A program made the translations under genes and the position numbers. The notes beneath the pieces are model-generated. The model had not been told where the DNA came from. It saw only the letters and a list, made by a program, of their open reading frames with translations, and did no database searches. 64,000 nt of DNA, from NCBI GenBank assembly GCA_022457155.1, contig JAJGOT010000412.1:301001-365000 (forward strand), read 5' to 3'. This document shows positions 29,106 through 48,745 of the stretch, piece by piece; the stretch's first letter is position 1, and every line of letters starts with the position of its first letter. Source of the DNA: Cladopsammia gracilis (lineage: Eukaryota; Cnidaria; Anthozoa; Scleractinia; Dendrophylliidae).

Positions 29106-30568
29106 ATAGGCGTTAGCCACCATGTTGCGCGCGTTAGCAAATTCAACTCTCACATTTAAGACGACATGAATGTGTTAATATAACAAGTAAGAAAGTGCGC
29201 GTGTTTTAGCAAATAACTGTTACATATAATGTTACATTTTACATACATAACAAAAGACTAATACATAAATTGAGGATGGGTAATAACGGATATATAAGAA
29301 TTAATTGTGTACGTAATAACGGATATATAAGAATTAATTGTGTACGTATTAGCAAACAACAGATACGTACAAAACATTATCATCATCTCTTAATTCGGAA
29401 GTATTAAAAGTGCATGCGTGTTACATGAATTAGGACGGGGTAATGTTTATATAAGTATTAGACTAAGAGTGCGCGTGTTAGCAAATAACTGATACATGAA
29501 TTAAGGTCTAGAAAGCATATAATGTTTATATAAGCATTAAGAGTGCGTGTGTTAGCAAATAAGTGATACATGAATTAAAAAGTGATAATGAGTAAGTAAG
29601 TGATAAGTAGTAATAGTGGGCGTGCTAGATTATACATGAGATAATGTTCATGTTTTATGTGTGGTATTGGATTCTGGCCAATGGCAGCATAATACGTAGC
29701 TACCGTTAAATATCTTTCGATATCACATATTTTTGATTCGCCTTCGTCTTGTAAAATCTTTTTTTTTTTTACATTGCGTTGTATCATGCCTCGCAAGAAG
29801 CGTTCCTCGATGAAACCTTTTAGCCAAGCAACAGATTTTTGGCAGGGCATACCGGTGGCCTTGATGGAAGTTCTAGCTGAGTACCAGATGACCACCGAAT
29901 AACCAAGCAGGATTTGGCAGACATGCACCTCGTGGTGAGTCACAAATAGTTTAACGCCAATTAATCACTCACCTCACCAAGTCCGCTGCTGATGTTGCCA
30001 CCGCCCTCTGTCCAGCATATTCCAGCTTGGCTTCTACTCTTCCGCAGGTTCCTTCGTCCCTTCATCAATTCAAGCTGGAAGACGAGATCGCCAAGATTAA
30101 AGCCGAGGGCTGCTTCTTCCACGCTTCACAATACACTGTCTATATATAAGCACCTTAAGAGTGCGCGTGTTAGCAAATAAATTATACACGAATTGAGAAG
30201 GGATGTTTATATACTATTTAAGAGAAGGCGCGTCTTTGCAAACAACTAATACATGAATTAAGAAGGGATATGTCTATATAAGTATTAAGAATGTGCACGC
30301 GTCTTAGCAAACAACTGATACATGAACTAAGAAGGGATAACAATGTTTATACGAGTATATAGAGCGTGCGCGCGTCTTAGCAAACAACTAATACGTGAAC
30401 TAAGAAGGGATAATGTTTATGAGTAAAAATAGTGTGCGCGTCTTAGCAGACAGTGATACATGAATAAAGAAGGTATAATAACGTTTATAAGTATTAAGAG
30501 TGTGCACGCGTCTCAGTAAACACTAATACATGAATAAAGAAGGGATAATGTTTTTATGAGTATAATAA
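29106..30568. repeat. About 65-bp minisatellite, left part
   Basis: Imperfect tandem units near AGTGCGCGTGTTAGCAAATAACTGATACATGAATTAAGAAGGGATAATG (quoted from several copies) plus TTTATATAAGTATTAAG run from about 29106 to 29600 and from 30150 to 30568. A non-repeat segment (29600-30150) interrupts them. The same array resumes at 51418, on the far side of the PLE complex. Confidence 0.7.
29785..30149 (+). pseudogene. Unrecognised coding-like fragment inside the minisatellite
   Basis: The plus strand has MPRKKRSSMKPFSQATDFWQ leading to an early stop. After a shift of frame comes ITKQDLADMHLV, then another open piece (SAADVATALCPAYSSLAS ... KLEDEIAKIKAEGCFF) ending at 30149. Composition looks protein-like, but the frames are broken. 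I do not recognise the family. It could be a captured host gene fragment or part of a transposon. Confidence 0.3.
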
Positions 30569-33154
30569 TGATAATAATAAAATGACAGGCCTGCGCGACT
30601 CACTGCGTGATGTTGTTTACATTTTTTATGAACGCTGCCTTATATTTTTGCCCTTACGAGCTTGTCTTTAAGAGATTTTCCTCTTTTGTAGGATATAATT
30701 GGCGGATTTTTGAAAATGTTCCTCAGCAGAGGCTGATTTTGTATTAAGTTCCAGTTCTGCATCAATATGTTTTTTAGGTTACGTACCGATGGGTGGTATG
30801 TCGTAACGAAGGGCAAGATTTCTTTAGGAGTTTTTTTCCTTTGTTGTAGAGCTGACTGTCTTTCGGCGAAGTTGATTTCTGATAACGTTGTATGTATCAA
30901 TTTGTGAGGATATCCGCGCGTTATGAGGCGCGATTTGAAATTGGAGATACTTTCTTTGAACGTTGTTTCAGAAGAGTTTGTTCTCAGTAGTCTGAGAGCT
31001 TCGCCTTTTATAAAGCCTCTTTTCACACCCGGTGGATGGCTTGAGGCAAAGTGTGTATACTGAAAGGTTTCAGTAGTCTTGTAATGTGTACGGATGTCAA
31101 GGATCGATTCATTTCTGAAACGTTCCCCTTTAAAAATATTTGTGTCGAGAAAGGTTGTCTCGTACTCTGAAATTTCAGCCGTAAATTTGATTGTAGGATG
31201 AAAGTTGTTAGCTTGTTCGATGAACAGGTTAATTTCCTGTTTGTCAGTGTCCCATAATGAGAAAATGTCGTCAATAAAACGTTTCCATTCTATTGGTTTT
31301 GTTTTGCTTTGACTTAACATTCTTGTTTCAATGTCGGCCATAAATATGTTTGCAAATGCAACGGCCATTTTTGTACCCATTGCAGTTCCATGGGTCTGTA
31401 GATAATTGTTTCCAACAAATTGGAATGAATTTTCTTGAAGGATAAGTTTAAGCATATCTTTGAGGTAATGCGACGGTATAGGAGGTTTATTGTTGTGGAA
31501 TGCCTCGTATGCTTTGCATACTGTTGTGATTCCCTCCTCCTGTGGTATATTTGTATACAGGCTTGTAACATCCATTGATACTAAGATAGTATCTTGAGAG
31601 ACCTTTGTCTTCTCTATAAAATTGACGAAATCTGTTGTATCTTTTAGATACGATTTCTGTTTTTGTGCGATTGGCTGAAGTAATTTGTCCACAAAAGATG
31701 ATAATCTTTCTGTAGGGCCTTCACAGCCCGAAATAATTGGTCTTCCGACCGGATTTGGTTTGTGGATCTTAGTAAGGGTGTAAAATATTGGTATTCTTGG
31801 CGGATCGCGCGTTTGAGATAACCATTTCTTAGTCATGTCATCAATAAAGTTATTTTGGTGTAATTTTGTGACAAGCTCGTGAACTCTTTGTGATGTTTCC
31901 CCTGCCATGGGATCTAGGAGAGGTTTATAGTGCTCTCTGTTGTCGAGTTGAATTTGAGCTTCTTGTATTTTATCACGTTTATTCATGATGACAGTTGTTG
32001 TGCCTTTGTCTGCCTTTTTAACTATGATTTCAGTGTTCTTTTTCAGCTCTATAAGAGCTTTATGTTCGTTGTGTGACAGATTATTTTTAGGCTTGATTGG
32101 TTTTATCTCGGCAAGTTGGATTTTCACACTTTCTAAATAGCTTTCTAGGGCAACTGACTTTTGAACCGGTGGCTTCCAGTCTGATTTGACGTGGAATGGA
32201 TGCGGTTCTTTATTTTCTCCGTGAAATATGTATTTCAGGCGCATACGTCTTGCGAATTTTTCAAAGTCTAACAAGAGTTGGCGCCTAATGTGATTATCGT
32301 TTGTCACCGGTGTCGGGACGAATTTGAGCCCTTTAGAAATAACGTTGACTTGGTCGTTACTAAGTTGTAGGTTTGAAAAATTCTTTATGAATTTCTCGTT
32401 GTTTTTTCTCTGTGTTTCAATCCGTTTTTTAACCACGTTTTTTCTACGCTCTTTGCGCTTTTGATTTGATTTGTACCCTTTTTTGTTTTGAATCCCCGTT
32501 ATGGTGGTTTGGTTTTCAGAGATAAGACTTTGGTACTTTTCAACACTTTTATTGTTTGCAGAATTCTGCAGCACATGTGTGTACAATATTTGTTTCAGCT
32601 CGTTGAAATCTTGCTGTAGTTTTTCTACCTGATTTACATCGTGTTTTACAATGTTTTCTGTGTTCGCCGAGTGCGACTGTTCTCGCATCGATCTATTTAC
32701 ATCAGTGCTAGCAATTGTGCTAGTATTTTTTGTGAGTTTAGCCTTTTTTAGTTTGTTTTCTTGACCGTTTAGGCGTCTTTTGTGAAACTGTAGGAGGGCG
32801 CTGACGAAGCCTTGTTCTGCTTCCTCTTTGATTCGCCTAATTTCTTTACAAAATGTCTCATCCGGCGGGATGTTAGCCCTTGCCGAGTACTGAAACGATT
32901 TAGGACAGGTTTTTTCCTCAAGATGTTGTTCAAGTTTCCTAATGGAATCTTTTGATTTTGTGATGTTAGTCTCTAAGGAGACTGTGTCCATGTATTTTCT
33001 TTTTCTGTTTGGTCTTCTGTTTTGAGCAGATTCTCTGGGTTGGCTGTTCTCTTGTTTGTATTGGTAGTGTCTTTTGTGTCTAGGTTCAGGTTGTGATGCT
33101 GGAGGGCTTGATTCGTATTCTTCCATGTCATATTTGCTGTTGTACAGGATGTCT
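30569..33154 (-). mobile_element. PLE copy 1, 5'-truncated
   Basis: This runs from the shared 3' terminus (on the minus strand GCGCAGGCCTGTCATTTTAT followed by TATTATCA) to a break at codon DILYNSK of the RT ORF. There it joins the 3' end of a tandem unit. The sequence appears identical to copy 2 over the shared length. Head-to-tail joining and 5' truncation are typical of Penelope-like elements. Confidence 0.8.
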
Positions 33155-33183
33155 AGTGTAAAATGGGGGTGGCAGGCCTGCAC
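30640..33183 (-). CDS. PLE reverse transcriptase, chimeric N-terminus
   Basis: The 847-codon frame is copy 1 of the PLE polymerase described at 45889. The last 837 or so codons match it. The first codons (MQACHPHFT) come from the end of the neighbouring tandem unit, which supplies an in-frame ATG after the 5' truncation removed about 45 native residues. The RT motifs (ADKG, SMDVTSLYTN, GTAMGTKMA, FIDDIFSLW) are intact, so a near-complete polymerase could still be made if the array drives transcription. Confidence 0.8.
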   Translation of the reverse strand: MQACHPHFTLDILYNSKYDMEEYESSPPASQPEPRHKRHYQYKQENSQPRESAQNRRPNRKRKYMDTVSLETNITKSKDSIRKLEQHLEEKTCPKSFQYSARANIPPDETFCKEIRRIKEEAEQGFVSALLQFHKRRLNGQENKLKKAKLTKNTSTIASTDVNRSMREQSHSANTENIVKHDVNQVEKLQQDFNELKQILYTHVLQNSANNKSVEKYQSLISENQTTITGIQNKKGYKSNQKRKERRKNVVKKRIETQRKNNEKFIKNFSNLQLSNDQVNVISKGLKFVPTPVTNDNHIRRQLLLDFEKFARRMRLKYIFHGENKEPHPFHVKSDWKPPVQKSVALESYLESVKIQLAEIKPIKPKNNLSHNEHKALIELKKNTEIIVKKADKGTTTVIMNKRDKIQEAQIQLDNREHYKPLLDPMAGETSQRVHELVTKLHQNNFIDDMTKKWLSQTRDPPRIPIFYTLTKIHKPNPVGRPIISGCEGPTERLSSFVDKLLQPIAQKQKSYLKDTTDFVNFIEKTKVSQDTILVSMDVTSLYTNIPQEEGITTVCKAYEAFHNNKPPIPSHYLKDMLKLILQENSFQFVGNNYLQTHGTAMGTKMAVAFANIFMADIETRMLSQSKTKPIEWKRFIDDIFSLWDTDKQEINLFIEQANNFHPTIKFTAEISEYETTFLDTNIFKGERFRNESILDIRTHYKTTETFQYTHFASSHPPGVKRGFIKGEALRLLRTNSSETTFKESISNFKSRLITRGYPHKLIHTTLSEINFAERQSALQQRKKTPKEILPFVTTYHPSVRNLKNILMQNWNLIQNQPLLRNIFKNPPIISYKRGKSLKDKLVRAKI

Positions 33184-33837
33184 GACTCTTACCTCATGTT
33201 TTTAATGCCATTTGCTCCTTCTATATGTTTTGGACGGGTATTCTACATTTAGCCGTTTGTTAAGGAGGATTTTAGTGACTGTAGAGTGTAGACTGAGTTT
33301 AAAACCTTTCAAAAGCCGCGTGCAACGGACTAGAGGTCAAGTAAAGGTGTCTGTTGTAGTTTTCCGTGGTATTGCGCTTGTAGATTTTGACCTCATTTTA
33401 GCGTCCTTTTTTGCCTGGCGGCTGTATCGTTGTTTTCGCCATTATTTATATTGGCATGTAGATTTTTCAGTATGTAGGAAAGGTTTGAATTTCTCTAACT
33501 TTTCTCTCTGAAATACCGGACATGACAAGATCTGAAATGATCTGTTGTCCGTGAATGTCTTTCCTGCTATTAATTCTATGTCACGCTGGGCCCAGCTATT
33601 TTAGATTTGTCTTTGCAGGATTTTAATGTTCAGGATCTAAGCTTTAGAGCAGAGAGAGTTGTAGCTTTAAAAGCTATTCAACTTGTAGAGAGTTGAAGTT
33701 TGTCTCAGTCAAGACTGTAATTTTAGCTTCCATTCGCTACGCTTTATAGCTTTGTGGAGCTCACTGTGATTACTAAAATCTCCGTTGGCAATTTTGGCAG
33801 TCTAGCGACTGCTTCGTTTACGCCACTATTCTATTCA

Positions 33838-33883
33838 GGCAAGACCATGGTTTCGGTTCTCCTCTCGAACCTCATCAGTTGCC
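33838..33883 (-). ncRNA. Type I hammerhead ribozyme, unit 1
   Basis: Minus strand, 5' to 3': GGCAA (stem I), CTGATGA core, GGTTC / GAACC stem II with a GAGAGGA loop, GAAA core, ACC-AT-GGT minimal stem III, then C and the cleavage point between 33843 and 33842, then TTGCC (stem I). All catalytic positions are present: CUGANGA, GAAA and a GUC cleavage triplet. Stem III is only three pairs but self-complementary (ACCATGGT), so two ribozymes in a multimer could pair as a dimer, as proposed for other PLE and retrozyme hammerheads. Confidence 0.9.
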
Positions 33884-33974
33884 GGGTTTGTATGTGCTAG
33901 TTGCTACCTTTTTAGCAACACATTTTTTGTTGAGAACGGTTAAACCATTCTGCTTGGCATAATTTTCAAACATG

Positions 33975-34019
33975 TATTTATACCCTTGCTGTGGATCGAA
34001 TTTCCTCGTTTCCTATTGG
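33975..34019 (-). promoter_or_regulatory. Putative unit promoter (CCAAT + TATA)
   Basis: On the minus strand CCAAT (34014-34019 region) is followed about 32 bases later by TATAAATA (33982-33975), which lies about 92 bases upstream of the ribozyme. The pattern repeats in every complete unit at +1142-base steps. PLE copy 2 has the same order and similar spacing with different bases, which supports a real promoter. The start site is not determined. Confidence 0.5.
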
Positions 34020-34979
34020 CTCTTCAATAGAAATTTCGATCCTCTCCGCTTGAAGCTAAGCGTGTGTTTCTTTGGAAGGCATTATTTGAAAATTTTAGCA
34101 CTTTCTTCTTTTGACTGAAATGAGGATATTTCTAAATGTGAGCGGTTACGTTTCCTGCATATTCCTTCTTGAGTTCGGAATGGATGCTATTAGATCAGTG
34201 CGCATTTCTTGATTTTATCCTCTGTCATATTTATGAGTGCGTATTTGTGTTGATCTTACACAAGGTAAAACGGGGCCTGCCTAAAACAATCAATCAAGTG
34301 TAAAATGGGGGTGGCAGGCCTGCACGACTCTTACCTCATGTTTTTAATGCCATTTGCTCCTTCTATATGTTTTGGACGGGTATTCTACATTTAGCCGTTT
34401 GTTAAGGAGGATTTTAGTGACTGTAGAGTGTAGACTGAGTTTAAAACCTTTCAAAAGCCGCGTGCAACGGACTAGAGGTCAAGTAAAGGTGTCTGTTGTA
34501 GTTTTCCGTGGTATTGCGCTTGTAGATTTTGACCTCATTTTAGCGTCCTTTTTTGCCTGGCGGCTGTATCGTTGTTTTCGCCATTATTTATATTGGCATG
34601 TAGATTTTTCAGTATGTAGGAAAGGTTTGAATTTCTCTAACTTTTCTCTCTGAAATACCGGACATGACAAGATCTGAAATGATCTGTTGTCCGTGAATGT
34701 CTTTCCTGCTATTAATTCTATGTCACGCTGGGCCCAGCTATTTTAGATTTGTCTTTGCAGGATTTTAATGTTCAGGATCTAAGCTTTAGAGCAGAGAGAG
34801 TTGTAGCTTTAAAAGCTATTCAACTTGTAGAGAGTTGAAGTTTGTCTCAGTCAAGACTGTAATTTTAGCTTCCATTCGCTACGCTTTATAGCTTTGTGGA
34901 GCTCACTGTGATTACTAAAATCTCCGTTGGCAATTTTGGCAGTCTAGCGACTGCTTCGTTTACGCCACTATTCTATTCA

Positions 34980-35025
34980 GGCAAGACCATGGTTTCGGTT
35001 CTCCTCTCGAACCTCATCAGTTGCC
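34980..35025 (-). ncRNA. Type I hammerhead ribozyme, unit 2
   Basis: Identical to the unit 1 ribozyme; cleavage predicted between 34985 and 34984. Confidence 0.9.
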
Positions 35026-36121
35026 GGGTTTGTATGTGCTAGTTGCTACCTTTTTAGCAACACATTTTTTGTTGAGAACGGTTAAACCATTCTGCTTGGC
35101 ATAATTTTCAAACATGTATTTATACCCTTGCTGTGGATCGAATTTCCTCGTTTCCTATTGGCTCTTCAATAGAAATTTCGATCCTCTCCGCTTGAAGCTA
35201 AGCGTGTGTTTCTTTGGAAGGCATTATTTGAAAATTTTAGCACTTTCTTCTTTTGACTGAAATGAGGATATTTCTAAATGTGAGCGGTTACGTTTCCTGC
35301 ATATTCCTTCTTGAGTTCGGAATGGATGCTATTAGATCAGTGCGCATTTCTTGATTTTATCCTCTGTCATATTTATGAGTGCGTATTTGTGTTGATCTTA
35401 CACAAGGTAAAACGGGGCCTGCCTAAAACAATCAATCAAGTGTAAAATGGGGGTGGCAGGCCTGCACGACTCTTACCTCATGTTTTTAATGCCATTTGCT
35501 CCTTCTATATGTTTTGGACGGGTATTCTACATTTAGCCGTTTGTTAAGGAGGATTTTAGTGACTGTAGAGTGTAGACTGAGTTTAAAACCTTTCAAAAGC
35601 CGCGTGCAACGGACTAGAGGTCAAGTAAAGGTGTCTGTTGTAGTTTTCCGTGGTATTGCGCTTGTAGATTTTGACCTCATTTTAGCGTCCTTTTTTGCCT
35701 GGCGGCTGTATCGTTGTTTTCGCCATTATTTATATTGGCATGTAGATTTTTCAGTATGTAGGAAAGGTTTGAATTTCTCTAACTTTTCTCTCTGAAATAC
35801 CGGACATGACAAGATCTGAAATGATCTGTTGTCCGTGAATGTCTTTCCTGCTATTAATTCTATGTCACGCTGGGCCCAGCTATTTTAGATTTGTCTTTGC
35901 AGGATTTTAATGTTCAGGATCTAAGCTTTAGAGCAGAGAGAGTTGTAGCTTTAAAAGCTATTCAACTTGTAGAGAGTTGAAGTTTGTCTCAGTCAAGACT
36001 GTAATTTTAGCTTCCATTCGCTACGCTTTATAGCTTTGTGGAGCTCACTGTGATTACTAAAATCTCCGTTGGCAATTTTGGCAGTCTAGCGACTGCTTCG
36101 TTTACGCCACTATTCTATTCA

Positions 36122-36167
36122 GGCAAGACCATGGTTTCGGTTCTCCTCTCGAACCTCATCAGTTGCC
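36122..36167 (-). ncRNA. Type I hammerhead ribozyme, unit 3
   Basis: Identical core and stems; cleavage predicted between 36127 and 36126. Confidence 0.9.
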
Positions 36168-37263
36168 GGGTTTGTATGTGCTAGTTGCTACCTTTTTAGC
36201 AACACATTTTTTGTTGAGAACGGTTAAACCATTCTGCTTGGCATAATTTTCAAACATGTATTTATACCCTTGCTGTGGATCGAATTTCCTCGTTTCCTAT
36301 TGGCTCTTCAATAGAAATTTCGATCCTCTCCGCTTGAAGCTAAGCGTGTGTTTCTTTGGAAGGCATTATTTGAAAATTTTAGCACTTTCTTCTTTTGACT
36401 GAAATGAGGATATTTCTAAATGTGAGCGGTTACGTTTCCTGCATATTCCTTCTTGAGTTCGGAATGGATGCTATTAGATCAGTGCGCATTTCTTGATTTT
36501 ATCCTCTGTCATATTTATGAGTGCGTATTTGTGTTGATCTTACACAAGGTAAAACGGGGCCTGCCTAAAACAATCAATCAAGTGTAAAATGGGGGTGGCA
36601 GGCCTGCACGACTCTTACCTCATGTTTTTAATGCCATTTGCTCCTTCTATATGTTTTGGACGGGTATTCTACATTTAGCCGTTTGTTAAGGAGGATTTTA
36701 GTGACTGTAGAGTGTAGACTGAGTTTAAAACCTTTCAAAAGCCGCGTGCAACGGACTAGAGGTCAAGTAAAGGTGTCTGTTGTAGTTTTCCGTGGTATTG
36801 CGCTTGTAGATTTTGACCTCATTTTAGCGTCCTTTTTTGCCTGGCGGCTGTATCGTTGTTTTCGCCATTATTTATATTGGCATGTAGATTTTTCAGTATG
36901 TAGGAAAGGTTTGAATTTCTCTAACTTTTCTCTCTGAAATACCGGACATGACAAGATCTGAAATGATCTGTTGTCCGTGAATGTCTTTCCTGCTATTAAT
37001 TCTATGTCACGCTGGGCCCAGCTATTTTAGATTTGTCTTTGCAGGATTTTAATGTTCAGGATCTAAGCTTTAGAGCAGAGAGAGTTGTAGCTTTAAAAGC
37101 TATTCAACTTGTAGAGAGTTGAAGTTTGTCTCAGTCAAGACTGTAATTTTAGCTTCCATTCGCTACGCTTTATAGCTTTGTGGAGCTCACTGTGATTACT
37201 AAAATCTCCGTTGGCAATTTTGGCAGTCTAGCGACTGCTTCGTTTACGCCACTATTCTATTCA

Positions 37264-37309
37264 GGCAAGACCATGGTTTCGGTTCTCCTCTCGAACCTCA
37301 TCAGTTGCC
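37264..37309 (-). ncRNA. Type I hammerhead ribozyme, unit 4
   Basis: Identical core and stems; cleavage predicted between 37269 and 37268. Confidence 0.9.
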
Positions 37310-38405
37310 GGGTTTGTATGTGCTAGTTGCTACCTTTTTAGCAACACATTTTTTGTTGAGAACGGTTAAACCATTCTGCTTGGCATAATTTTCAAACATG
37401 TATTTATACCCTTGCTGTGGATCGAATTTCCTCGTTTCCTATTGGCTCTTCAATAGAAATTTCGATCCTCTCCGCTTGAAGCTAAGCGTGTGTTTCTTTG
37501 GAAGGCATTATTTGAAAATTTTAGCACTTTCTTCTTTTGACTGAAATGAGGATATTTCTAAATGTGAGCGGTTACGTTTCCTGCATATTCCTTCTTGAGT
37601 TCGGAATGGATGCTATTAGATCAGTGCGCATTTCTTGATTTTATCCTCTGTCATATTTATGAGTGCGTATTTGTGTTGATCTTACACAAGGTAAAACGGG
37701 GCCTGCCTAAAACAATCAATCAAGTGTAAAATGGGGGTGGCAGGCCTGCACGACTCTTACCTCATGTTTTTAATGCCATTTGCTCCTTCTATATGTTTTG
37801 GACGGGTATTCTACATTTAGCCGTTTGTTAAGGAGGATTTTAGTGACTGTAGAGTGTAGACTGAGTTTAAAACCTTTCAAAAGCCGCGTGCAACGGACTA
37901 GAGGTCAAGTAAAGGTGTCTGTTGTAGTTTTCCGTGGTATTGCGCTTGTAGATTTTGACCTCATTTTAGCGTCCTTTTTTGCCTGGCGGCTGTATCGTTG
38001 TTTTCGCCATTATTTATATTGGCATGTAGATTTTTCAGTATGTAGGAAAGGTTTGAATTTCTCTAACTTTTCTCTCTGAAATACCGGACATGACAAGATC
38101 TGAAATGATCTGTTGTCCGTGAATGTCTTTCCTGCTATTAATTCTATGTCACGCTGGGCCCAGCTATTTTAGATTTGTCTTTGCAGGATTTTAATGTTCA
38201 GGATCTAAGCTTTAGAGCAGAGAGAGTTGTAGCTTTAAAAGCTATTCAACTTGTAGAGAGTTGAAGTTTGTCTCAGTCAAGACTGTAATTTTAGCTTCCA
38301 TTCGCTACGCTTTATAGCTTTGTGGAGCTCACTGTGATTACTAAAATCTCCGTTGGCAATTTTGGCAGTCTAGCGACTGCTTCGTTTACGCCACTATTCT
38401 ATTCA

Positions 38406-38451
38406 GGCAAGACCATGGTTTCGGTTCTCCTCTCGAACCTCATCAGTTGCC
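38406..38451 (-). ncRNA. Type I hammerhead ribozyme, unit 5
   Basis: Identical core and stems; cleavage predicted between 38411 and 38410. Confidence 0.9.
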
Positions 38452-39547
38452 GGGTTTGTATGTGCTAGTTGCTACCTTTTTAGCAACACATTTTTTGTTG
38501 AGAACGGTTAAACCATTCTGCTTGGCATAATTTTCAAACATGTATTTATACCCTTGCTGTGGATCGAATTTCCTCGTTTCCTATTGGCTCTTCAATAGAA
38601 ATTTCGATCCTCTCCGCTTGAAGCTAAGCGTGTGTTTCTTTGGAAGGCATTATTTGAAAATTTTAGCACTTTCTTCTTTTGACTGAAATGAGGATATTTC
38701 TAAATGTGAGCGGTTACGTTTCCTGCATATTCCTTCTTGAGTTCGGAATGGATGCTATTAGATCAGTGCGCATTTCTTGATTTTATCCTCTGTCATATTT
38801 ATGAGTGCGTATTTGTGTTGATCTTACACAAGGTAAAACGGGGCCTGCCTAAAACAATCAATCAAGTGTAAAATGGGGGTGGCAGGCCTGCACGACTCTT
38901 ACCTCATGTTTTTAATGCCATTTGCTCCTTCTATATGTTTTGGACGGGTATTCTACATTTAGCCGTTTGTTAAGGAGGATTTTAGTGACTGTAGAGTGTA
39001 GACTGAGTTTAAAACCTTTCAAAAGCCGCGTGCAACGGACTAGAGGTCAAGTAAAGGTGTCTGTTGTAGTTTTCCGTGGTATTGCGCTTGTAGATTTTGA
39101 CCTCATTTTAGCGTCCTTTTTTGCCTGGCGGCTGTATCGTTGTTTTCGCCATTATTTATATTGGCATGTAGATTTTTCAGTATGTAGGAAAGGTTTGAAT
39201 TTCTCTAACTTTTCTCTCTGAAATACCGGACATGACAAGATCTGAAATGATCTGTTGTCCGTGAATGTCTTTCCTGCTATTAATTCTATGTCACGCTGGG
39301 CCCAGCTATTTTAGATTTGTCTTTGCAGGATTTTAATGTTCAGGATCTAAGCTTTAGAGCAGAGAGAGTTGTAGCTTTAAAAGCTATTCAACTTGTAGAG
39401 AGTTGAAGTTTGTCTCAGTCAAGACTGTAATTTTAGCTTCCATTCGCTACGCTTTATAGCTTTGTGGAGCTCACTGTGATTACTAAAATCTCCGTTGGCA
39501 ATTTTGGCAGTCTAGCGACTGCTTCGTTTACGCCACTATTCTATTCA

Positions 39548-39593
39548 GGCAAGACCATGGTTTCGGTTCTCCTCTCGAACCTCATCAGTTGCC
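39548..39593 (-). ncRNA. Type I hammerhead ribozyme, unit 6
   Basis: Identical core and stems; cleavage predicted between 39553 and 39552. Confidence 0.9.
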
Positions 39594-40689
39594 GGGTTTG
39601 TATGTGCTAGTTGCTACCTTTTTAGCAACACATTTTTTGTTGAGAACGGTTAAACCATTCTGCTTGGCATAATTTTCAAACATGTATTTATACCCTTGCT
39701 GTGGATCGAATTTCCTCGTTTCCTATTGGCTCTTCAATAGAAATTTCGATCCTCTCCGCTTGAAGCTAAGCGTGTGTTTCTTTGGAAGGCATTATTTGAA
39801 AATTTTAGCACTTTCTTCTTTTGACTGAAATGAGGATATTTCTAAATGTGAGCGGTTACGTTTCCTGCATATTCCTTCTTGAGTTCGGAATGGATGCTAT
39901 TAGATCAGTGCGCATTTCTTGATTTTATCCTCTGTCATATTTATGAGTGCGTATTTGTGTTGATCTTACACAAGGTAAAACGGGGCCTGCCTAAAACAAT
40001 CAATCAAGTGTAAAATGGGGGTGGCAGGCCTGCACGACTCTTACCTCATGTTTTTAATGCCATTTGCTCCTTCTATATGTTTTGGACGGGTATTCTACAT
40101 TTAGCCGTTTGTTAAGGAGGATTTTAGTGACTGTAGAGTGTAGACTGAGTTTAAAACCTTTCAAAAGCCGCGTGCAACGGACTAGAGGTCAAGTAAAGGT
40201 GTCTGTTGTAGTTTTCCGTGGTATTGCGCTTGTAGATTTTGACCTCATTTTAGCGTCCTTTTTTGCCTGGCGGCTGTATCGTTGTTTTCGCCATTATTTA
40301 TATTGGCATGTAGATTTTTCAGTATGTAGGAAAGGTTTGAATTTCTCTAACTTTTCTCTCTGAAATACCGGACATGACAAGATCTGAAATGATCTGTTGT
40401 CCGTGAATGTCTTTCCTGCTATTAATTCTATGTCACGCTGGGCCCAGCTATTTTAGATTTGTCTTTGCAGGATTTTAATGTTCAGGATCTAAGCTTTAGA
40501 GCAGAGAGAGTTGTAGCTTTAAAAGCTATTCAACTTGTAGAGAGTTGAAGTTTGTCTCAGTCAAGACTGTAATTTTAGCTTCCATTCGCTACGCTTTATA
40601 GCTTTGTGGAGCTCACTGTGATTACTAAAATCTCCGTTGGCAATTTTGGCAGTCTAGCGACTGCTTCGTTTACGCCACTATTCTATTCA

Positions 40690-40735
40690 GGCAAGACCAT
40701 GGTTTCGGTTCTCCTCTCGAACCTCATCAGTTGCC
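40690..40735 (-). ncRNA. Type I hammerhead ribozyme, unit 7
   Basis: Identical core and stems; cleavage predicted between 40695 and 40694. Confidence 0.9.
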
Positions 40736-41831
40736 GGGTTTGTATGTGCTAGTTGCTACCTTTTTAGCAACACATTTTTTGTTGAGAACGGTTAAACCAT
40801 TCTGCTTGGCATAATTTTCAAACATGTATTTATACCCTTGCTGTGGATCGAATTTCCTCGTTTCCTATTGGCTCTTCAATAGAAATTTCGATCCTCTCCG
40901 CTTGAAGCTAAGCGTGTGTTTCTTTGGAAGGCATTATTTGAAAATTTTAGCACTTTCTTCTTTTGACTGAAATGAGGATATTTCTAAATGTGAGCGGTTA
41001 CGTTTCCTGCATATTCCTTCTTGAGTTCGGAATGGATGCTATTAGATCAGTGCGCATTTCTTGATTTTATCCTCTGTCATATTTATGAGTGCGTATTTGT
41101 GTTGATCTTACACAAGGTAAAACGGGGCCTGCCTAAAACAATCAATCAAGTGTAAAATGGGGGTGGCAGGCCTGCACGACTCTTACCTCATGTTTTTAAT
41201 GCCATTTGCTCCTTCTATATGTTTTGGACGGGTATTCTACATTTAGCCGTTTGTTAAGGAGGATTTTAGTGACTGTAGAGTGTAGACTGAGTTTAAAACC
41301 TTTCAAAAGCCGCGTGCAACGGACTAGAGGTCAAGTAAAGGTGTCTGTTGTAGTTTTCCGTGGTATTGCGCTTGTAGATTTTGACCTCATTTTAGCGTCC
41401 TTTTTTGCCTGGCGGCTGTATCGTTGTTTTCGCCATTATTTATATTGGCATGTAGATTTTTCAGTATGTAGGAAAGGTTTGAATTTCTCTAACTTTTCTC
41501 TCTGAAATACCGGACATGACAAGATCTGAAATGATCTGTTGTCCGTGAATGTCTTTCCTGCTATTAATTCTATGTCACGCTGGGCCCAGCTATTTTAGAT
41601 TTGTCTTTGCAGGATTTTAATGTTCAGGATCTAAGCTTTAGAGCAGAGAGAGTTGTAGCTTTAAAAGCTATTCAACTTGTAGAGAGTTGAAGTTTGTCTC
41701 AGTCAAGACTGTAATTTTAGCTTCCATTCGCTACGCTTTATAGCTTTGTGGAGCTCACTGTGATTACTAAAATCTCCGTTGGCAATTTTGGCAGTCTAGC
41801 GACTGCTTCGTTTACGCCACTATTCTATTCA

Positions 41832-41877
41832 GGCAAGACCATGGTTTCGGTTCTCCTCTCGAACCTCATCAGTTGCC
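41832..41877 (-). ncRNA. Type I hammerhead ribozyme, unit 8
   Basis: Identical core and stems; cleavage predicted between 41837 and 41836. Confidence 0.9.
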
Positions 41878-42973
41878 GGGTTTGTATGTGCTAGTTGCTA
41901 CCTTTTTAGCAACACATTTTTTGTTGAGAACGGTTAAACCATTCTGCTTGGCATAATTTTCAAACATGTATTTATACCCTTGCTGTGGATCGAATTTCCT
42001 CGTTTCCTATTGGCTCTTCAATAGAAATTTCGATCCTCTCCGCTTGAAGCTAAGCGTGTGTTTCTTTGGAAGGCATTATTTGAAAATTTTAGCACTTTCT
42101 TCTTTTGACTGAAATGAGGATATTTCTAAATGTGAGCGGTTACGTTTCCTGCATATTCCTTCTTGAGTTCGGAATGGATGCTATTAGATCAGTGCGCATT
42201 TCTTGATTTTATCCTCTGTCATATTTATGAGTGCGTATTTGTGTTGATCTTACACAAGGTAAAACGGGGCCTGCCTAAAACAATCAATCAAGTGTAAAAT
42301 GGGGGTGGCAGGCCTGCACGACTCTTACCTCATGTTTTTAATGCCATTTGCTCCTTCTATATGTTTTGGACGGGTATTCTACATTTAGCCGTTTGTTAAG
42401 GAGGATTTTAGTGACTGTAGAGTGTAGACTGAGTTTAAAACCTTTCAAAAGCCGCGTGCAACGGACTAGAGGTCAAGTAAAGGTGTCTGTTGTAGTTTTC
42501 CGTGGTATTGCGCTTGTAGATTTTGACCTCATTTTAGCGTCCTTTTTTGCCTGGCGGCTGTATCGTTGTTTTCGCCATTATTTATATTGGCATGTAGATT
42601 TTTCAGTATGTAGGAAAGGTTTGAATTTCTCTAACTTTTCTCTCTGAAATACCGGACATGACAAGATCTGAAATGATCTGTTGTCCGTGAATGTCTTTCC
42701 TGCTATTAATTCTATGTCACGCTGGGCCCAGCTATTTTAGATTTGTCTTTGCAGGATTTTAATGTTCAGGATCTAAGCTTTAGAGCAGAGAGAGTTGTAG
42801 CTTTAAAAGCTATTCAACTTGTAGAGAGTTGAAGTTTGTCTCAGTCAAGACTGTAATTTTAGCTTCCATTCGCTACGCTTTATAGCTTTGTGGAGCTCAC
42901 TGTGATTACTAAAATCTCCGTTGGCAATTTTGGCAGTCTAGCGACTGCTTCGTTTACGCCACTATTCTATTCA

Positions 42974-43019
42974 GGCAAGACCATGGTTTCGGTTCTCCTC
43001 TCGAACCTCATCAGTTGCC
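42974..43019 (-). ncRNA. Type I hammerhead ribozyme, unit 9
   Basis: Last ribozyme of the array. The tenth unit is truncated before this point, so it has none. Confidence 0.9.
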
Positions 43020-43861
43020 GGGTTTGTATGTGCTAGTTGCTACCTTTTTAGCAACACATTTTTTGTTGAGAACGGTTAAACCATTCTGCTTGGCATAATT
43101 TTCAAACATGTATTTATACCCTTGCTGTGGATCGAATTTCCTCGTTTCCTATTGGCTCTTCAATAGAAATTTCGATCCTCTCCGCTTGAAGCTAAGCGTG
43201 TGTTTCTTTGGAAGGCATTATTTGAAAATTTTAGCACTTTCTTCTTTTGACTGAAATGAGGATATTTCTAAATGTGAGCGGTTACGTTTCCTGCATATTC
43301 CTTCTTGAGTTCGGAATGGATGCTATTAGATCAGTGCGCATTTCTTGATTTTATCCTCTGTCATATTTATGAGTGCGTATTTGTGTTGATCTTACACAAG
43401 GTAAAACGGGGCCTGCCTAAAACAATCAATCAAGTGTAAAATGGGGGTGGCAGGCCTGCACGACTCTTACCTCATGTTTTTAATGCCATTTGCTCCTTCT
43501 ATATGTTTTGGACGGGTATTCTACATTTAGCCGTTTGTTAAGGAGGATTTTAGTGACTGTAGAGTGTAGACTGAGTTTAAAACCTTTCAAAAGCCGCGTG
43601 CAACGGACTAGAGGTCAAGTAAAGGTGTCTGTTGTAGTTTTCCGTGGTATTGCGCTTGTAGATTTTGACCTCATTTTAGCGTCCTTTTTTGCCTGGCGGC
43701 TGTATCGTTGTTTTCGCCATTATTTATATTGGCATGTAGATTTTTCAGTATGTAGGAAAGGTTTGAATTTCTCTAACTTTTCTCTCTGAAATACCGGACA
43801 TGACAAGATCTGAAATGATCTGTTGTCCGTGAATGTCTTTCCTGCTATGATAATAATAAAA

Positions 43862-45823
43862 TCGGTCAGTACAAAATGCAGACTGCAGACTGCAGATTGC
43901 AGACTGCAGACTGGGTATAAAATGCAGACTAGGTATAAAATGCAGACTGCAGACTGCAGACTGAGTATAAAATGCAGACTGAGACCAAAATTGGGTATAA
44001 AATGCAGACGGACTGCAAAATTGTCATTTCGTGCAATACACGATATATTTTCATCGTTAACTCACCCCACTGTCATGTAATCACCTTTCTGAGTTCGTTT
44101 CCTTGCAATTTCCTCTCCATATGCGTAGACAGTCCGTTTACTTTTTGCGCTGAAACCGGACAAACATCACGTTCGATCGTGGAGCCGCCATCTTGAATAA
44201 TCTGAGGGCTATGTCTAAAGTCTGGAACGAGGAATCGGGGAACGGGGATCGAGGAATCTCTAAAACGGGGGAATCTCTAAAATGGGGAATCTCTAAAATA
44301 GGGAATCTCTAAAATAGGGAATCTCTAAAACAGGGAATCTCTAAAATAGGGAATCTCTAAAATGGGGAATCTCTAGAACGGGGAATCTCTAAAATAGGGA
44401 ATCTCTAAAATAGGGAATCTTAAAAGCAGCTGTTAAGAGAAATGAGATCACAAGAGTTTTTTCAAGGTGGCCATAAGTAAAGCTGTCCGCTCGTGATAAA
44501 AATTTCGCTCAGAAAACTCTGACAAGGCAAAGGATGTTGCTGAGGGTCCGTTGCACGCGGCTTTTAATATAAATGAATGGGGTAAGTTTCTAGAGAAACT
44601 GTGCAAGTTTCAAGTATTATCTTGTCTGCCGCTTCGTAAATACGACGCGCCTATTACGTCTCAAATTTCCATTATCATTAACTCGAGCTGCCATTATTAT
44701 TAACTATTAACTCTCCTCGGGGGAGAACCTCGGATTTCAATTTAACGGTCACGAGAAGAGAGTTAATAGTTAATAATAATGGGAGCTCGAGTTAATAATA
44801 ATGGAAATTTGAGACGTAATAGGCGCGTCGTATTTACGAAGCGGCAGACAAGATAATATTTGAAACTTGCGTGCAAGGTCAACCGTCTTCGCTCTGATTC
44901 AAATCGCTTTCAAAACGACTCAAAAAGACACAGGAAGACAGGTAAATAACAATATTTTATTAAATGATTATGTTACAGCCGATAAAGCGTTTGGGCTCCC
45001 TGTGAATAGATTATCATCGACCGCTTGTTCAAATGAAGACGTGAGGGAGACTTACTGGCAATAAAAAGGAAACTAGAGATTTAGAGATTCCCCATTTTAG
45101 AGAGATTCTCTATTTTAGAGATTCCCCGTTCCCCGGCCCTCGTTTTCCGATTCCCCGTTCTTTTTTTTCAGACATGGCCATAATCCGAGCAACCCGAACG
45201 AAGTCATTTCCGATTTGTGATCGTGATTTCCGATTTGTCATTACCGCTCCCTGTTACCGCTGGCTTTAATGTTTACCCACTGCCTAATCACCATCACCTA
45301 AATATCAGCTCCCTGTACCAAAGATACGTATAGTATTATTCAAAGCTTTCAAGAAATAAAATTACTTTCACATGAACAATATCGCTTAAAAAACGTTCCA
45401 GAACTACAACTTACCCGGATGGCCGATAAGAGGGTCGCTCCGAGTCACATGATTCTCAGCTGATATCGACTTAAAACGGGTTAAATCGCGGCAAGCTTGT
45501 TTTTCCGTTCGCCGAGGCAAATAAGCACGTATTATTCTTGGTTTGAGATCAAGTAATACAGCGTTTCAATTCAATGTTGACGTTTAGCGCCAAGAGAGAA
45601 ACTTTTAGCCGCTGATAAACTAGGGAAGGCAATTGCGTGACACTGGGGTACGTTGAAAACATTGTTATCGGACAGTCTGCATTTTATACTCAATTTTGGT
45701 CTCAGTCCTGCATTTTATACCCAATCTGCAGTCTGCAGTCTGCGTTTTATACCTAGTCTGCATTTTATACCCAGTCTGCAGTCTGCAATCTGCAGTCTGC
45801 AGTCTGCATTTTGTACTGACCGA
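43862..45823. mobile_element. 1962-bp foldback DNA transposon with 8-bp target duplication
   Basis: The ends TCGGTCAGTACAAAATGCAG and the exact inverse are flanked by TAATAAAA on both sides (43854-43861 and 45824-45831). Terminal repeats of about 150 bases are built of GCAGACT and GGTATAAAATGCAGAC subrepeats. Further in, GGGAATCTCTAAAA repeats (44230-44425) have inverse partners near 45077-45155, and the centre (44612-44866) is a long palindrome around AACTCTCCTCGGGGGAGAAC. No transposase frame is present. An 8-bp duplication fits hAT, P or Merlin-type enzymes; I cannot choose. It inserted into the 3' end of PLE copy 2, so it is younger than that. Confidence 0.85.
44230..44425 (+). repeat. 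GGGAATCTCTAAAA minisatellite
   Basis: About a dozen copies of a 14-16 base unit (GGGAATCTCTAAAAYR) lie in the left half of the foldback element. A shorter inverse block is in its right half. Confidence 0.8.
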
Positions 45824-45888
45824 TAATAAAATGACAGGCCTGCGCGACTCACTGCGTGATGTTGTTTACATTTTTTATGAACGCTGCC

Positions 45889-48534
45889 TTATATTTTTGC
45901 CCTTACGAGCTTGTCTTTAAGAGATTTTCCTCTTTTGTAGGATATAATTGGCGGATTTTTGAAAATGTTCCTCAGCAGAGGCTGATTTTGTATTAAGTTC
46001 CAGTTCTGCATCAATATGTTTTTTAGGTTACGTACCGATGGGTGGTATGTCGTAACGAAGGGCAAGATTTCTTTAGGAGTTTTTTTCCTTTGTTGTAGAG
46101 CTGACTGTCTTTCGGCGAAGTTGATTTCTGATAACGTTGTATGTATCAATTTGTGAGGATATCCGCGCGTTATGAGGCGCGATTTGAAATTGGAGATACT
46201 TTCTTTGAACGTTGTTTCAGAAGAGTTTGTTCTCAGTAGTCTGAGAGCTTCGCCTTTTATAAAGCCTCTTTTCACACCCGGTGGATGGCTTGAGGCAAAG
46301 TGTGTATACTGAAAGGTTTCAGTAGTCTTGTAATGTGTACGGATGTCAAGGATCGATTCATTTCTGAAACGTTCCCCTTTAAAAATATTTGTGTCGAGAA
46401 AGGTTGTCTCGTACTCTGAAATTTCAGCCGTAAATTTGATTGTAGGATGAAAGTTGTTAGCTTGTTCGATGAACAGGTTAATTTCCTGTTTGTCAGTGTC
46501 CCATAATGAGAAAATGTCGTCAATAAAACGTTTCCATTCTATTGGTTTTGTTTTGCTTTGACTTAACATTCTTGTTTCAATGTCGGCCATAAATATGTTT
46601 GCAAATGCAACGGCCATTTTTGTACCCATTGCAGTTCCATGGGTCTGTAGATAATTGTTTCCAACAAATTGGAATGAATTTTCTTGAAGGATAAGTTTAA
46701 GCATATCTTTGAGGTAATGCGACGGTATAGGAGGTTTATTGTTGTGGAATGCCTCGTATGCTTTGCATACTGTTGTGATTCCCTCCTCCTGTGGTATATT
46801 TGTATACAGGCTTGTAACATCCATTGATACTAAGATAGTATCTTGAGAGACCTTTGTCTTCTCTATAAAATTGACGAAATCTGTTGTATCTTTTAGATAC
46901 GATTTCTGTTTTTGTGCGATTGGCTGAAGTAATTTGTCCACAAAAGATGATAATCTTTCTGTAGGGCCTTCACAGCCCGAAATAATTGGTCTTCCGACCG
47001 GATTTGGTTTGTGGATCTTAGTAAGGGTGTAAAATATTGGTATTCTTGGCGGATCGCGCGTTTGAGATAACCATTTCTTAGTCATGTCATCAATAAAGTT
47101 ATTTTGGTGTAATTTTGTGACAAGCTCGTGAACTCTTTGTGATGTTTCCCCTGCCATGGGATCTAGGAGAGGTTTATAGTGCTCTCTGTTGTCGAGTTGA
47201 ATTTGAGCTTCTTGTATTTTATCACGTTTATTCATGATGACAGTTGTTGTGCCTTTGTCTGCCTTTTTAACTATGATTTCAGTGTTCTTTTTCAGCTCTA
47301 TAAGAGCTTTATGTTCGTTGTGTGACAGATTATTTTTAGGCTTGATTGGTTTTATCTCGGCAAGTTGGATTTTCACACTTTCTAAATAGCTTTCTAGGGC
47401 AACTGACTTTTGAACCGGTGGCTTCCAGTCTGATTTGACGTGGAATGGATGCGGTTCTTTATTTTCTCCGTGAAATATGTATTTCAGGCGCATACGTCTT
47501 GCGAATTTTTCAAAGTCTAACAAGAGTTGGCGCCTAATGTGATTATCGTTTGTCACCGGTGTCGGGACGAATTTGAGCCCTTTAGAAATAACGTTGACTT
47601 GGTCGTTACTAAGTTGTAGGTTTGAAAAATTCTTTATGAATTTCTCGTTGTTTTTTCTCTGTGTTTCAATCCGTTTTTTAACCACGTTTTTTCTACGCTC
47701 TTTGCGCTTTTGATTTGATTTGTACCCTTTTTTGTTTTGAATCCCCGTTATGGTGGTTTGGTTTTCAGAGATAAGACTTTGGTACTTTTCAACACTTTTA
47801 TTGTTTGCAGAATTCTGCAGCACATGTGTGTACAATATTTGTTTCAGCTCGTTGAAATCTTGCTGTAGTTTTTCTACCTGATTTACATCGTGTTTTACAA
47901 TGTTTTCTGTGTTCGCCGAGTGCGACTGTTCTCGCATCGATCTATTTACATCAGTGCTAGCAATTGTGCTAGTATTTTTTGTGAGTTTAGCCTTTTTTAG
48001 TTTGTTTTCTTGACCGTTTAGGCGTCTTTTGTGAAACTGTAGGAGGGCGCTGACGAAGCCTTGTTCTGCTTCCTCTTTGATTCGCCTAATTTCTTTACAA
48101 AATGTCTCATCCGGCGGGATGTTAGCCCTTGCCGAGTACTGAAACGATTTAGGACAGGTTTTTTCCTCAAGATGTTGTTCAAGTTTCCTAATGGAATCTT
48201 TTGATTTTGTGATGTTAGTCTCTAAGGAGACTGTGTCCATGTATTTTCTTTTTCTGTTTGGTCTTCTGTTTTGAGCAGATTCTCTGGGTTGGCTGTTCTC
48301 TTGTTTGTATTGGTAGTGTCTTTTGTGTCTAGGTTCAGGTTGTGATGCTGGAGGGCTTGATTCGTATTCTTCCATGTCATATTTGCTGTTGTACAGGATG
48401 TCCAGCTCGTCTTTATCTGGTATTCCTTCTGGTGTTTTTGGCACCTCGAATATATCTGAGTCTCCCTCTACCGCGGACGGCGTGAGGTATTTTTCTAGTT
48501 CTTGTAGTTCTTTATTGTCTGTTGACATTATCAA
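45889..48534 (-). CDS. Penelope-like reverse transcriptase, 881 aa
   Basis: The first 300 or so residues are charged, basic and coiled-coil-like (KRHYQYKQ, NRRPNRKRK, QKRKERRKNVVKKR) and probably bind nucleic acid. The polymerase follows: the PLE-type KKADKGTTTVIMN finger at about residue 430, KIHKPNPVGRPIISG, motif A SMDVTSLYTN with Asp572, motif B HGTAMGTKMA, motif C FIDDIFSLW with Asp672-Asp673, and motif E-like TTFLDTNIF. The ORF ends in SYKRGKSLKDKLVRAKI, the point where endonuclease-bearing PLEs continue into a Cys-rich linker and GIY-YIG nuclease. Here a TAA follows, and the remaining 65 bases hold no nuclease. It therefore resembles endonuclease-lacking PLEs or depends on another nuclease. 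The start is the first ATG of the frame, about 30 bases downstream of the ribozyme product. Confidence 0.9.
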   Translation of the reverse strand: MIMSTDNKELQELEKYLTPSAVEGDSDIFEVPKTPEGIPDKDELDILYNSKYDMEEYESSPPASQPEPRHKRHYQYKQENSQPRESAQNRRPNRKRKYMDTVSLETNITKSKDSIRKLEQHLEEKTCPKSFQYSARANIPPDETFCKEIRRIKEEAEQGFVSALLQFHKRRLNGQENKLKKAKLTKNTSTIASTDVNRSMREQSHSANTENIVKHDVNQVEKLQQDFNELKQILYTHVLQNSANNKSVEKYQSLISENQTTITGIQNKKGYKSNQKRKERRKNVVKKRIETQRKNNEKFIKNFSNLQLSNDQVNVISKGLKFVPTPVTNDNHIRRQLLLDFEKFARRMRLKYIFHGENKEPHPFHVKSDWKPPVQKSVALESYLESVKIQLAEIKPIKPKNNLSHNEHKALIELKKNTEIIVKKADKGTTTVIMNKRDKIQEAQIQLDNREHYKPLLDPMAGETSQRVHELVTKLHQNNFIDDMTKKWLSQTRDPPRIPIFYTLTKIHKPNPVGRPIISGCEGPTERLSSFVDKLLQPIAQKQKSYLKDTTDFVNFIEKTKVSQDTILVSMDVTSLYTNIPQEEGITTVCKAYEAFHNNKPPIPSHYLKDMLKLILQENSFQFVGNNYLQTHGTAMGTKMAVAFANIFMADIETRMLSQSKTKPIEWKRFIDDIFSLWDTDKQEINLFIEQANNFHPTIKFTAEISEYETTFLDTNIFKGERFRNESILDIRTHYKTTETFQYTHFASSHPPGVKRGFIKGEALRLLRTNSSETTFKESISNFKSRLITRGYPHKLIHTTLSEINFAERQSALQQRKKTPKEILPFVTTYHPSVRNLKNILMQNWNLIQNQPLLRNIFKNPPIISYKRGKSLKDKLVRAKI

Positions 48535-48564
48535 TGGTGTTTGATAATTGACTGTATGGTCTCC

Positions 48565-48609
48565 AGCAAGACCGGCGGTTTCGATTCTGTACGAATCTCT
48601 TCAGTTGCT
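48565..48609 (-). ncRNA. Type I hammerhead ribozyme in PLE copy 2 leader
   Basis: Minus strand: AGCAA (stem I), CTGAAGA core, GATTC / GAATC stem II with a GTACA loop, GAAA core, ACC-GCC-GGT stem III, C, cleavage between 48570 and 48569, then TTGCT (stem I). Compared with the array ribozyme, stem I changes G-C to A-U and stem II changes G-C to A-U on both strands, so pairing is kept while sequence drifts. This covariation supports a functional RNA. Cleavage leaves a 5' end about 35 bases upstream of the RT start codon. Confidence 0.9.
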
Positions 48610-48690
48610 ATTTACTGACAACAGTAATATGTGGCAGGAAGGTAGAGTAAATTCTCAATTCCGTTCCTGTAGAATTTGTGACGGGTGACC

Positions 48691-48745
48691 TTTATATATG
48701 TATACGGGTGATTGATGGGGATCGAAAATAATGTATTTTCATTGG
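48691..48745 (-). promoter_or_regulatory. Putative PLE promoter (CCAAT + TATA)
   Basis: CCAAT (48745-48741) then TATATAAA (48698-48691) on the minus strand, with the ribozyme starting about 82 bases downstream. The order and spacing match the tandem unit. Confidence 0.5.

Follow-up and report, generated by a model that had tools for sequence, protein, structure and literature searches.

Closest described systems

Endonuclease-deficient members exist among Penelope-like elements (PLEs), Coprina being one of them. A further group with which the locus described below has to be compared is that of animal hammerhead repeats. In the excerpts of PMC7229834 that we refer to, these repeats measure 150-450 bp, and hammerhead circles range from 150 to over 1000 nt. 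The same excerpts of this 2020 paper leave the mobilising enzyme of the repeats open and present PLEs as strong candidates, given the shared hammerheads, the tandem copies and the co-existence of both. According to excerpts of PMC11167929, reverse transcription of an anole PLE starts internally in its RNA, in a stem-loop; its ribozyme mutants showed normal insertion in vitro, and there were no reads ending at the cut site. Athena is named as an endonuclease-deficient PLE in the consulted part of PMC3846280. Among the literature matches listed, covered by their titles and the starts of their abstracts, there was no ORF-less hammerhead-bearing PLE unit, which is not proof of absence; the literature scope did not extend to PMC4209133 (PLE hammerheads), PMC5850863 (Terminons) and PMC5785218 (dimeric PLE hammerheads).

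An array of identical units with hammerhead motifs

The window (the whole stretch of 64,000 nt of Cladopsammia gracilis DNA analysed here) carries on its minus strand an array (33155-43848) of nine full 1142-bp units, arranged head-to-tail and adjoined by a partial tenth, the 416-bp 3' partial unit at 43433-43848. Full units showed 0 differences from each other, and 9552 of 9552 positions between 33155 and 42706 matched on a shift by 1142; this confirms the array of identical units claimed in a preliminary description of this DNA. The array spans 10,694 bp, or 9.364 units. The unit (GC 39.8%) has no ORF, its longest sense frame being 52 codons. A tblastn search with 121 PLE proteins found no PLE coding trace in it (nothing better than E 0.033), and a unit-specific 21-mer had 0 matches in viral_contigs. 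Retrozyme RNA is highly self-paired; folding of the unit RNA as a circle gave z-scores of -4.3 (sense) and -2.5 (antisense), and a single control stretch from the window gave -2.9 (40 shuffles each). Elsewhere in the window, on the plus strand, lie an old solo member of the unit family, truncated at its 5' end (3102-3678; unit positions 551-1140, 66.5% identity), ending near the same 3' boundary as the array unit, and an inverted fragment (50883-51180). The latter comprises the 3'-terminal 298 nt of the unit, begins at the unit's 3' boundary and, apart from one base and a 9-bp duplication, matches the array unit.

Scanning the window for hammerheads (CTGANGA core, GAAA, stems I, II and III, H17) yielded ten motifs, while first-order Markov random sequence gave 0.025 hits per 64 kb (largest count 1 in 40 runs). 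Nine of these motifs, which the preliminary description had already claimed, sit on the minus strand of the array at 1142-bp spacing (33838-33883, 34980-35025, 36122-36167, 37264-37309, 38406-38451, 39548-39593, 40690-40735, 41832-41877 and 42974-43019), with predicted cuts after 33843 + n x 1142. The tenth, previously unmentioned, is a diverged motif in the 5' region of a PLE copy, called B below (48562-48612, minus strand), its predicted cut following position 48570 and lying 41 nt ahead of the ATG. The bare core CTGATGA showed no enrichment (12 seen, 7.6 expected). With a stem I of 5 bp and a palindromic stem III of 2-3 bp, the unit hammerhead looks like the minimal PLE type, type I. Rfam does not recognise the minimal hammerheads of the array and copy B with confidence, which we regard as weak evidence: none was found at gathering score, and HH9 matched each of the nine array motifs at only 21.8 bits (E 0.25). 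Minimum-energy folds of single copies had no hammerhead shape (z -0.15 for the unit, -1.8 for copy B). Two copies co-folded do give the topology of a dimeric hammerhead; the pairing energy was not above chance, since 96 of 300 shuffles for the unit and 122 of 300 for copy B were as strong, and the co-fold was dropped as support for the hammerhead. We infer the activity of the unit and PLE motifs from their sequence.

Each full unit also contains promoter-like CCAAT and TATA motifs; in the first unit (33974-34022, minus strand) CCAAT lies within 34012-34022 and TATAAATA within 33974-33985. As had been proposed, there are nine copies each of the CCAAT and TATAAATA stretches, all in one phase at 1142-bp spacing, because the units are identical; these are motif matches only.

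A PLE without a detectable GIY-YIG domain

The array is accompanied by three PLE copies on the minus strand. Copy A (30569-33153) is 5'-truncated inside its ORF, copy B (45824-49062) is taken as full-length from its 3245-bp period to copy C, and copy C (49063-50866) is 5'-truncated and in tandem with B. Their bodies are identical over 2580 bp (A-B), 1804 bp (A-C) and 1799 bp (B-C). The ORF of copy B (45889-48528, minus strand) encodes 879 aa, and the PLE ends about 70 nt past the stop codon. Pfam RVT_1 matches the copy C frame at 7e-8, with no family at 1e-3 for the longer frames of A and B. The ORF is related to two GIY-YIG PLE-type proteins (34-36% identity) and has no PDB sequence match up to E 1. 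Two aspartates, which we take to be the catalytic pair, are invariant across 17 aligned proteins. Judging by these sequence features, copies A, B and C belong with PLE-type reverse transcriptases.

The GIY-YIG domain was found neither in the PLE ORF nor in any of the 4 homologues scanned, and precomputed domains had it in 0 of 120 homologues among the matches listed (134 found), while it was detected in two distant PLEs used as positive controls. In addition, 16 aligned homologues from the 120 listed stop within 4 residues of a common C-terminus. Such evidence leads us to consider this element an endonuclease-less PLE. Relatives of the PLE were absent from viral_contigs, with a single protein query as well as with an alignment query, and from genome_contigs in one search; an alternative search of genome_contigs brought up the two distant GIY-YIG PLEs that served as positive controls, from records whose titles name bacterial bins and which are probably contamination.

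Known hammerhead PLEs (PMC11167929, PMC7761336, both in excerpt) are likewise tandem and have a hammerhead near the ORF start, and inverted pieces are shared with the Adineta PLEs (PMC3846280, in excerpt). Unlike known hammerhead PLEs, the one described here has no detected GIY-YIG domain, a 3' end that close to the stop codon and a fusion to a ninefold array of an ORF-less 1142-bp derivative.

A composite insertion

What the preliminary description did not report is that the 3' end of the array meets copy A, a PLE truncated at the 5' side inside its ORF, and that both are part of a composite of the order C-B-array-A. The joins are direct, the one between B and the array being read across a DNA element with terminal inverted repeats (TIR; 43863-45823) that splits the 3' end of B, so that the last few 3' bases of B sit beyond it. 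This 1.96-kb element, flanked by a 9-bp target duplication, TAATAAAAT, was considered as a part of the system and rejected as a TIR insertion. A wrong copy number or wrong joins in the assembly might be suspected, as exact repeats exceeding the read length can be miscounted; however, every join is a different sequence and the TIR element with its 9-bp duplication splits B consistently, and we find such an artefact very improbable.

No target duplication was found for the composite: its flanks share a 7-bp word, present in 28.5% of shuffles. The composite adjoins a 73-bp minisatellite. Compared with endonuclease-deficient PLEs, to which the present PLE is similar in having no GIY-YIG domain detected, the insertion lies beside this minisatellite, and the window has no TTAGGG array (one chance-level match with one mismatch).

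Relationship of the unit to the PLE

The 5' region of the unit resembles that of the PLE with a z-score of 8.7 (1000 dinucleotide shuffles), the control with the unit middle giving -0.8 (300 shuffles). For the 3' ends, scored with copy B carrying four appended bases taken from A and C, z was 6.1, and 0 of 1000 shuffles did as well. By blastn the likeness is weak (best piece 38 bp, E 7e-5). Lacking an ORF and resembling the PLE at its 5' region and 3' end, the unit is most plausibly a non-autonomous miniature of an endonuclease-less PLE (mini-PLE).

The preliminary description had compared the unit with animal retrozymes, among which its size would be unusual. The retrozyme-like character holds, as the unit is a non-coding tandem repeat with a type I hammerhead and a GC content below about 45-50%, similar to metazoan non-LTR retrozymes (Cervera and de la Pena 2020, PMC7229834, in excerpt). 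Unlike those, which have a range of about 150-450 bp, it measures 1142 bp and has promoter-like motifs, PLE-like ends and a hammerhead that looks minimal next to the canonical one with loop I-loop II contacts; metazoan retrozymes are expressed as linear and circular RNA, and 1142-nt RNAs of either form would be the counterpart here. On the sequence comparison, PLE likeness at both ends appears to explain its size better than an oversized animal retrozyme does.

Alternatively, a second PLE family, itself autonomous, could have the unit as its pseudo-LTR (pLTR), which would make the array a run of pLTRs as in ordinary tandem PLEs. Tandem PLEs are known, the repeated UTR sequence between copies being the pLTR (PMC11167929, in excerpt), truncated and inverted pLTRs have been reported (PMC3846280, in excerpt), hammerheads are known in pLTRs, and the array is indeed placed between two PLE ORFs, those of B and A. 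However, the PLE's own inter-ORF sequence, seen at C/B, differs from the unit, and the window contains no further PLE coding match (E <= 1e-3) beyond A, B and C. Moreover, the pLTR of Adineta Pen2a contains the first ORF codons (PMC3846280, in excerpt), of which the tblastn search showed no trace in the unit. A pLTR origin thus seems rather unlikely to us.

Boundary stem-loops and the proposed copying of the array

A stem-loop can be drawn on the minus strand across each of the nine unit/unit junctions (34258-34341 for the first, apical hairpin 34274-34320), the unit boundary 34296/34297 falling in its loop, as well as across the junction of PLE copies C and B (49024-49104, apical hairpin 49039-49085). 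In a comparison of these two sequences, paired by hand and with a single bulge, the geometry is alike, the loops are 31 nt and 19 of 19 aligned pairs are standard in both; in 7 of the 19 pairs both partners differ, in 3 one partner does, and 9 are the same. Single-sequence fold z-scores are only -1.9 (unit) and -3.1 (PLE), and the 8-bp apical stem alone is expected at 1.6-1.7% by chance. Mid-loop positions are taken by the 3' termini of A and of B, by the start of the array (33155) and by that of the inverted fragment (51180). Ends so placed recall the internal initiation of the anole PLE in a stem-loop (PMC11167929, in excerpt), a feature that the present PLE may share.

According to the preliminary description, the neighbouring PLE reverse transcriptase copies linear or circular unit RNAs back into tandem DNA. 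The PLE enzyme indeed remains the likely copier. Hammerhead-cut linear monomers, in turn, were rejected as improbable templates, since the array and the inverted fragment start in the boundary loop and not at the cut; with a loop-to-cut distance of 688 nt, 9.36 unbroken units could not come from one such monomer.

We consider it fairly probable that the unit is such a mini-PLE and that the PLE reverse transcriptase moved it in trans, starting in the boundary loop, in one insertion event, a scenario built on the sequence of one locus. The unit would have kept the PLE ends and a diverged promoter and hammerhead region around a middle of about 600 nt of non-coding sequence. Tandem or circular RNA would bear the stem-loop over every head-to-tail boundary, and the enzyme would begin cDNA in that loop and copy backwards. 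Most likely, PLE and unit RNAs were copied into one site, with 9.4 laps of the unit. PLE RNA would have been copied first, giving A; after a jump to the loop of the unit RNA, 9.36 laps would have produced the array, and another jump, to the loop of PLE RNA, would have given B, continuing into C. The inverted fragment might then go back to another cDNA, which started at the unit's loop from the opposite side and met the first.

Tandem repeats homogenise through unequal crossing-over or gene conversion. An array expanded in this way from a one- or two-unit insertion would account for the identity of all its units, and yet the array forms part of a composite in which the PLE copies are directly joined and equally identical. 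Given that laps of reverse transcription fit the loop start and the single partial 5' unit with no extra steps, we regard such an expansion as unlikely.

The form of the templates is the least certain part of the scenario. Whether they were covalent RNA circles, arising by hammerhead cutting and ligation, or uncut multimers, we see the chances of circles as about even. Long uncut multimeric transcripts of an earlier array, with no role of the ribozyme in copying, are somewhat less probable than an even chance would have it. Protein had to be added for the anole PLE hammerhead to cut, and mutating this hammerhead left insertion in vitro unaffected (PMC11167929, in excerpt); the minimum-energy folds and the chance-level dimer pairing described above point the same way. 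On the other hand, uncut multimers would call for a homogeneous source array and for transcripts longer than 10 kb in which all nine ribozymes stay uncut, whereas a circle would require none of this. More tentatively, and with the balance tilted against it, covalent RNA circles may be the replicating form of the PLE as well as of the miniature: the hammerhead would cut tandem transcripts, a ligase would close the circles, and the endonuclease-less enzyme would start in the boundary stem-loop, lap a circle several times and jump from loop to loop between circles while filling a DNA break.

Implications

Overall, a hammerhead repeat and a PLE that are alike at both ends and in the geometry of their boundary stem-loops appear here in what we read as one insertion joined at the loops. 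The question of the mobiliser can thereby be put to biochemistry, with the RNAs and the start site defined, and the composite offers a reason for PLEs keeping hammerheads and tandem copies. Replication through circles, if true, would jointly explain why PLEs have hammerheads, occur in tandem and initiate internally; it would also tell what mobilises animal hammerhead repeats.

The array and its hammerheads

The tandem array of identical 1142-bp units claimed in the preliminary description is real: at 33155-43848, on the minus strand, nine full copies stand without a single difference beside a 416-bp partial unit, and in a shift comparison the array matches itself one unit on at 9552 of 9552 positions. 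The promoter-like motifs and hammerhead claimed for every unit were likewise recovered at the motif level, with a single CCAAT stretch, TATAAATA and hammerhead in each full unit. A motif scan of the window, for which random sequence gives 0.025 matches per 64 kb, yielded a tenth, diverged hammerhead at 48562-48612. Co-folded as a dimer, the unit hammerhead reaches -35.0 kcal/mol against 2 x -13.0 for two singles, and that of a neighbouring Penelope-like element (PLE), copy B, -27.6 against 2 x -10.0 kcal/mol. This gain is not above chance, being equalled by 96/300 and 122/300 shuffled sequences, respectively; thus, dimer co-folding gives no support for hammerhead activity. Folded as a circle, the unit outscores its shuffles only modestly (sense z -4.3; control stretch z -2.9).

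Relationship of the unit to the PLE

The unit lacks an ORF, its longest sense frame spanning 52 codons, and shows no trace of PLE coding sequence. Its first 474 nt align with the 5' region of B at 324 identities in 413 columns with many gaps, giving a z of 8.7 (1000 dinucleotide shuffles) versus -0.8 for the unit middle as control (300 shuffles). CCAAT, TATA and hammerhead follow in the same order in the unit and PLE 5' regions, and the predicted cleavage site lies 454 nt from the boundary in the unit and 493 nt in the PLE. The 3' ends also match (z 6.1; 0/1000 shuffles as good) when four bases are added to B as read in copies A and C. We consider it probable that the unit is an ORF-less mini-PLE, in an account where the PLE reverse transcriptase copies it. 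The array does occupy a position between the B and A ORFs resembling that of a pseudo-LTR, the UTR sequence repeated between tandem PLE ORFs; that the unit is the pseudo-LTR of another PLE seems to us rather unlikely. An old, 5'-truncated copy at 3102-3678 (66.5% identity over unit 551-1140) stops at about the same boundary as the array unit, and, being separate, it indicates that the unit has inserted in at least two places.

The PLE protein

The ORF of copy B encodes 879 aa, with the predicted hammerhead cut 41 nt upstream of its ATG. A Pfam RVT_1 match was obtained in the copy C frame and no Pfam family at 1e-3 in the longer A and B frames, so the PLE identification rests on the former match and on homology. 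The relatives that carry an organism name come from Montipora, Acropora, Oculina and Pocillopora (six rows among the best 120 of 134 homologues), in keeping with a stony coral as the probable source of the window. GIY-YIG was present in 0/120 of these best homologues by precomputed domains (8000 candidates scored) and in none of four scanned directly; the C-termini of 16 aligned homologues lie within 4 residues of one another. Two distant PLE proteins, used as positive controls, do give GIY-YIG matches under that library, and hence the absence of the domain is not due to model failure; both come from records whose titles name bacterial bins (Deltaproteobacteria MAG, Epulopiscium), where they are probably eukaryotic contamination.

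A composite insertion

PLE copies A (30569-33153), B (about 45824-49062) and C (49063-50866) lie on a common strand and are completely identical over 2580 bp (A-B), 1804 bp (A-C) and 1799 bp (B-C). C leads head to tail into B, the B 3' end continues into the array's partial unit when read across an inserted TIR element, and the array 3' end joins A within its ORF. Beyond C lies an inverted 298-bp unit piece, which starts at the unit's 3' boundary and differs from the array unit by one substitution and a 9-bp duplication. The TIR element splitting B is read as a later arrival. No target duplication was found for the composite, the best shared word being 7 bp and present in 28.5% of shuffles. 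A 73-bp minisatellite occupies the left flank (29422-30570), with diverged repeats of it on the right (51410-51750), and the insertion site may be a minisatellite region.

The TIR element itself (43863-45823, ~1.96 kb) is bounded by inverted ends of 150 bp that share 96.7% identity and are rich in the TGCAGACTG minisatellite. It is flanked by a target duplication of 9 bp, and a palindrome inside it (44603-44870) overlaps a MIR8706 match that scores below gathering. Elsewhere in the window are an adjoining BTB-PHR gene with named relatives in Porites and Pocillopora (4 among 120 matches listed), an extensive tract of diverged tandem repeats of 84-90 bp (58922-63993) and two exon-like frames (12352-14568), the first with no Pfam family and the second (14065-14568) matching the octopine/nopaline dehydrogenase family.

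The boundary stem-loop and a possible mechanism

RNA spanning the unit|unit boundary can fold into a basal stem of 13 bp topped by an apical stem of 8 bp and a loop of 31 nt; the C|B boundary matches it in apical stem and loop length, its basal stem having 11 bp and one bulge. In this comparison of two sequences, with pairing placed by hand, all 19 aligned pairs are standard in each sequence: 9 are unchanged, 3 differ on one side and 7 on both sides. The folds score z -1.9 for the unit (7/200 shuffles as good) and -3.1 for the PLE (2/200). The apical stem by itself has a chance of 1.6-1.7%; among single-arm shuffles, basal runs of at least 11 pairs arose in 0.2% for the unit and in none of 20,000 for the PLE. 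In unit and PLE alike the boundary falls within the 31-base loop, with 14-16 loop bases preceding it; copies A and B have their 3' ends at this point, and the array and inverted fragment start there. As described in PMC11167929, reverse transcription of an anole PLE begins at a stem-loop inside its RNA, the 3' end not being the main start site. A start in the boundary loop would explain the ends of A, B, the array and the inverted fragment.

The linear, hammerhead-cut unit RNA put forward earlier as one possible template does not fit: its loop and cut would lie just 688 nt apart, against the 9.36 uninterrupted laps of the array. Since copy B also reads through its own cut site, the template was an uncut multimer or a closed circle. 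The direct joins and identical parts favour a single insertion event, perhaps a break filled from both sides, which would fit an enzyme lacking endonuclease. Successive additions to an open end would leave a similar picture, and unequal exchange inside the array may have followed insertion.

Counting against the account, the anole work also describes ribozyme mutants that inserted normally in vitro, hammerhead cleavage that required protein, and no RNA-seq reads ending at the cut. Our coral evidence is the sequence of one locus. PLEs with hammerheads, PLEs in tandem and small animal retrozymes (non-coding hammerhead repeats) are already known. Apparently new, as not evident among the papers listed in literature searches, is a 1142-bp ORF-less hammerhead PLE derivative, arrayed, fused to its own PLE and sharing a like boundary stem-loop. 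A further, less likely reading is that PLE and unit both replicate as covalent RNA circles.
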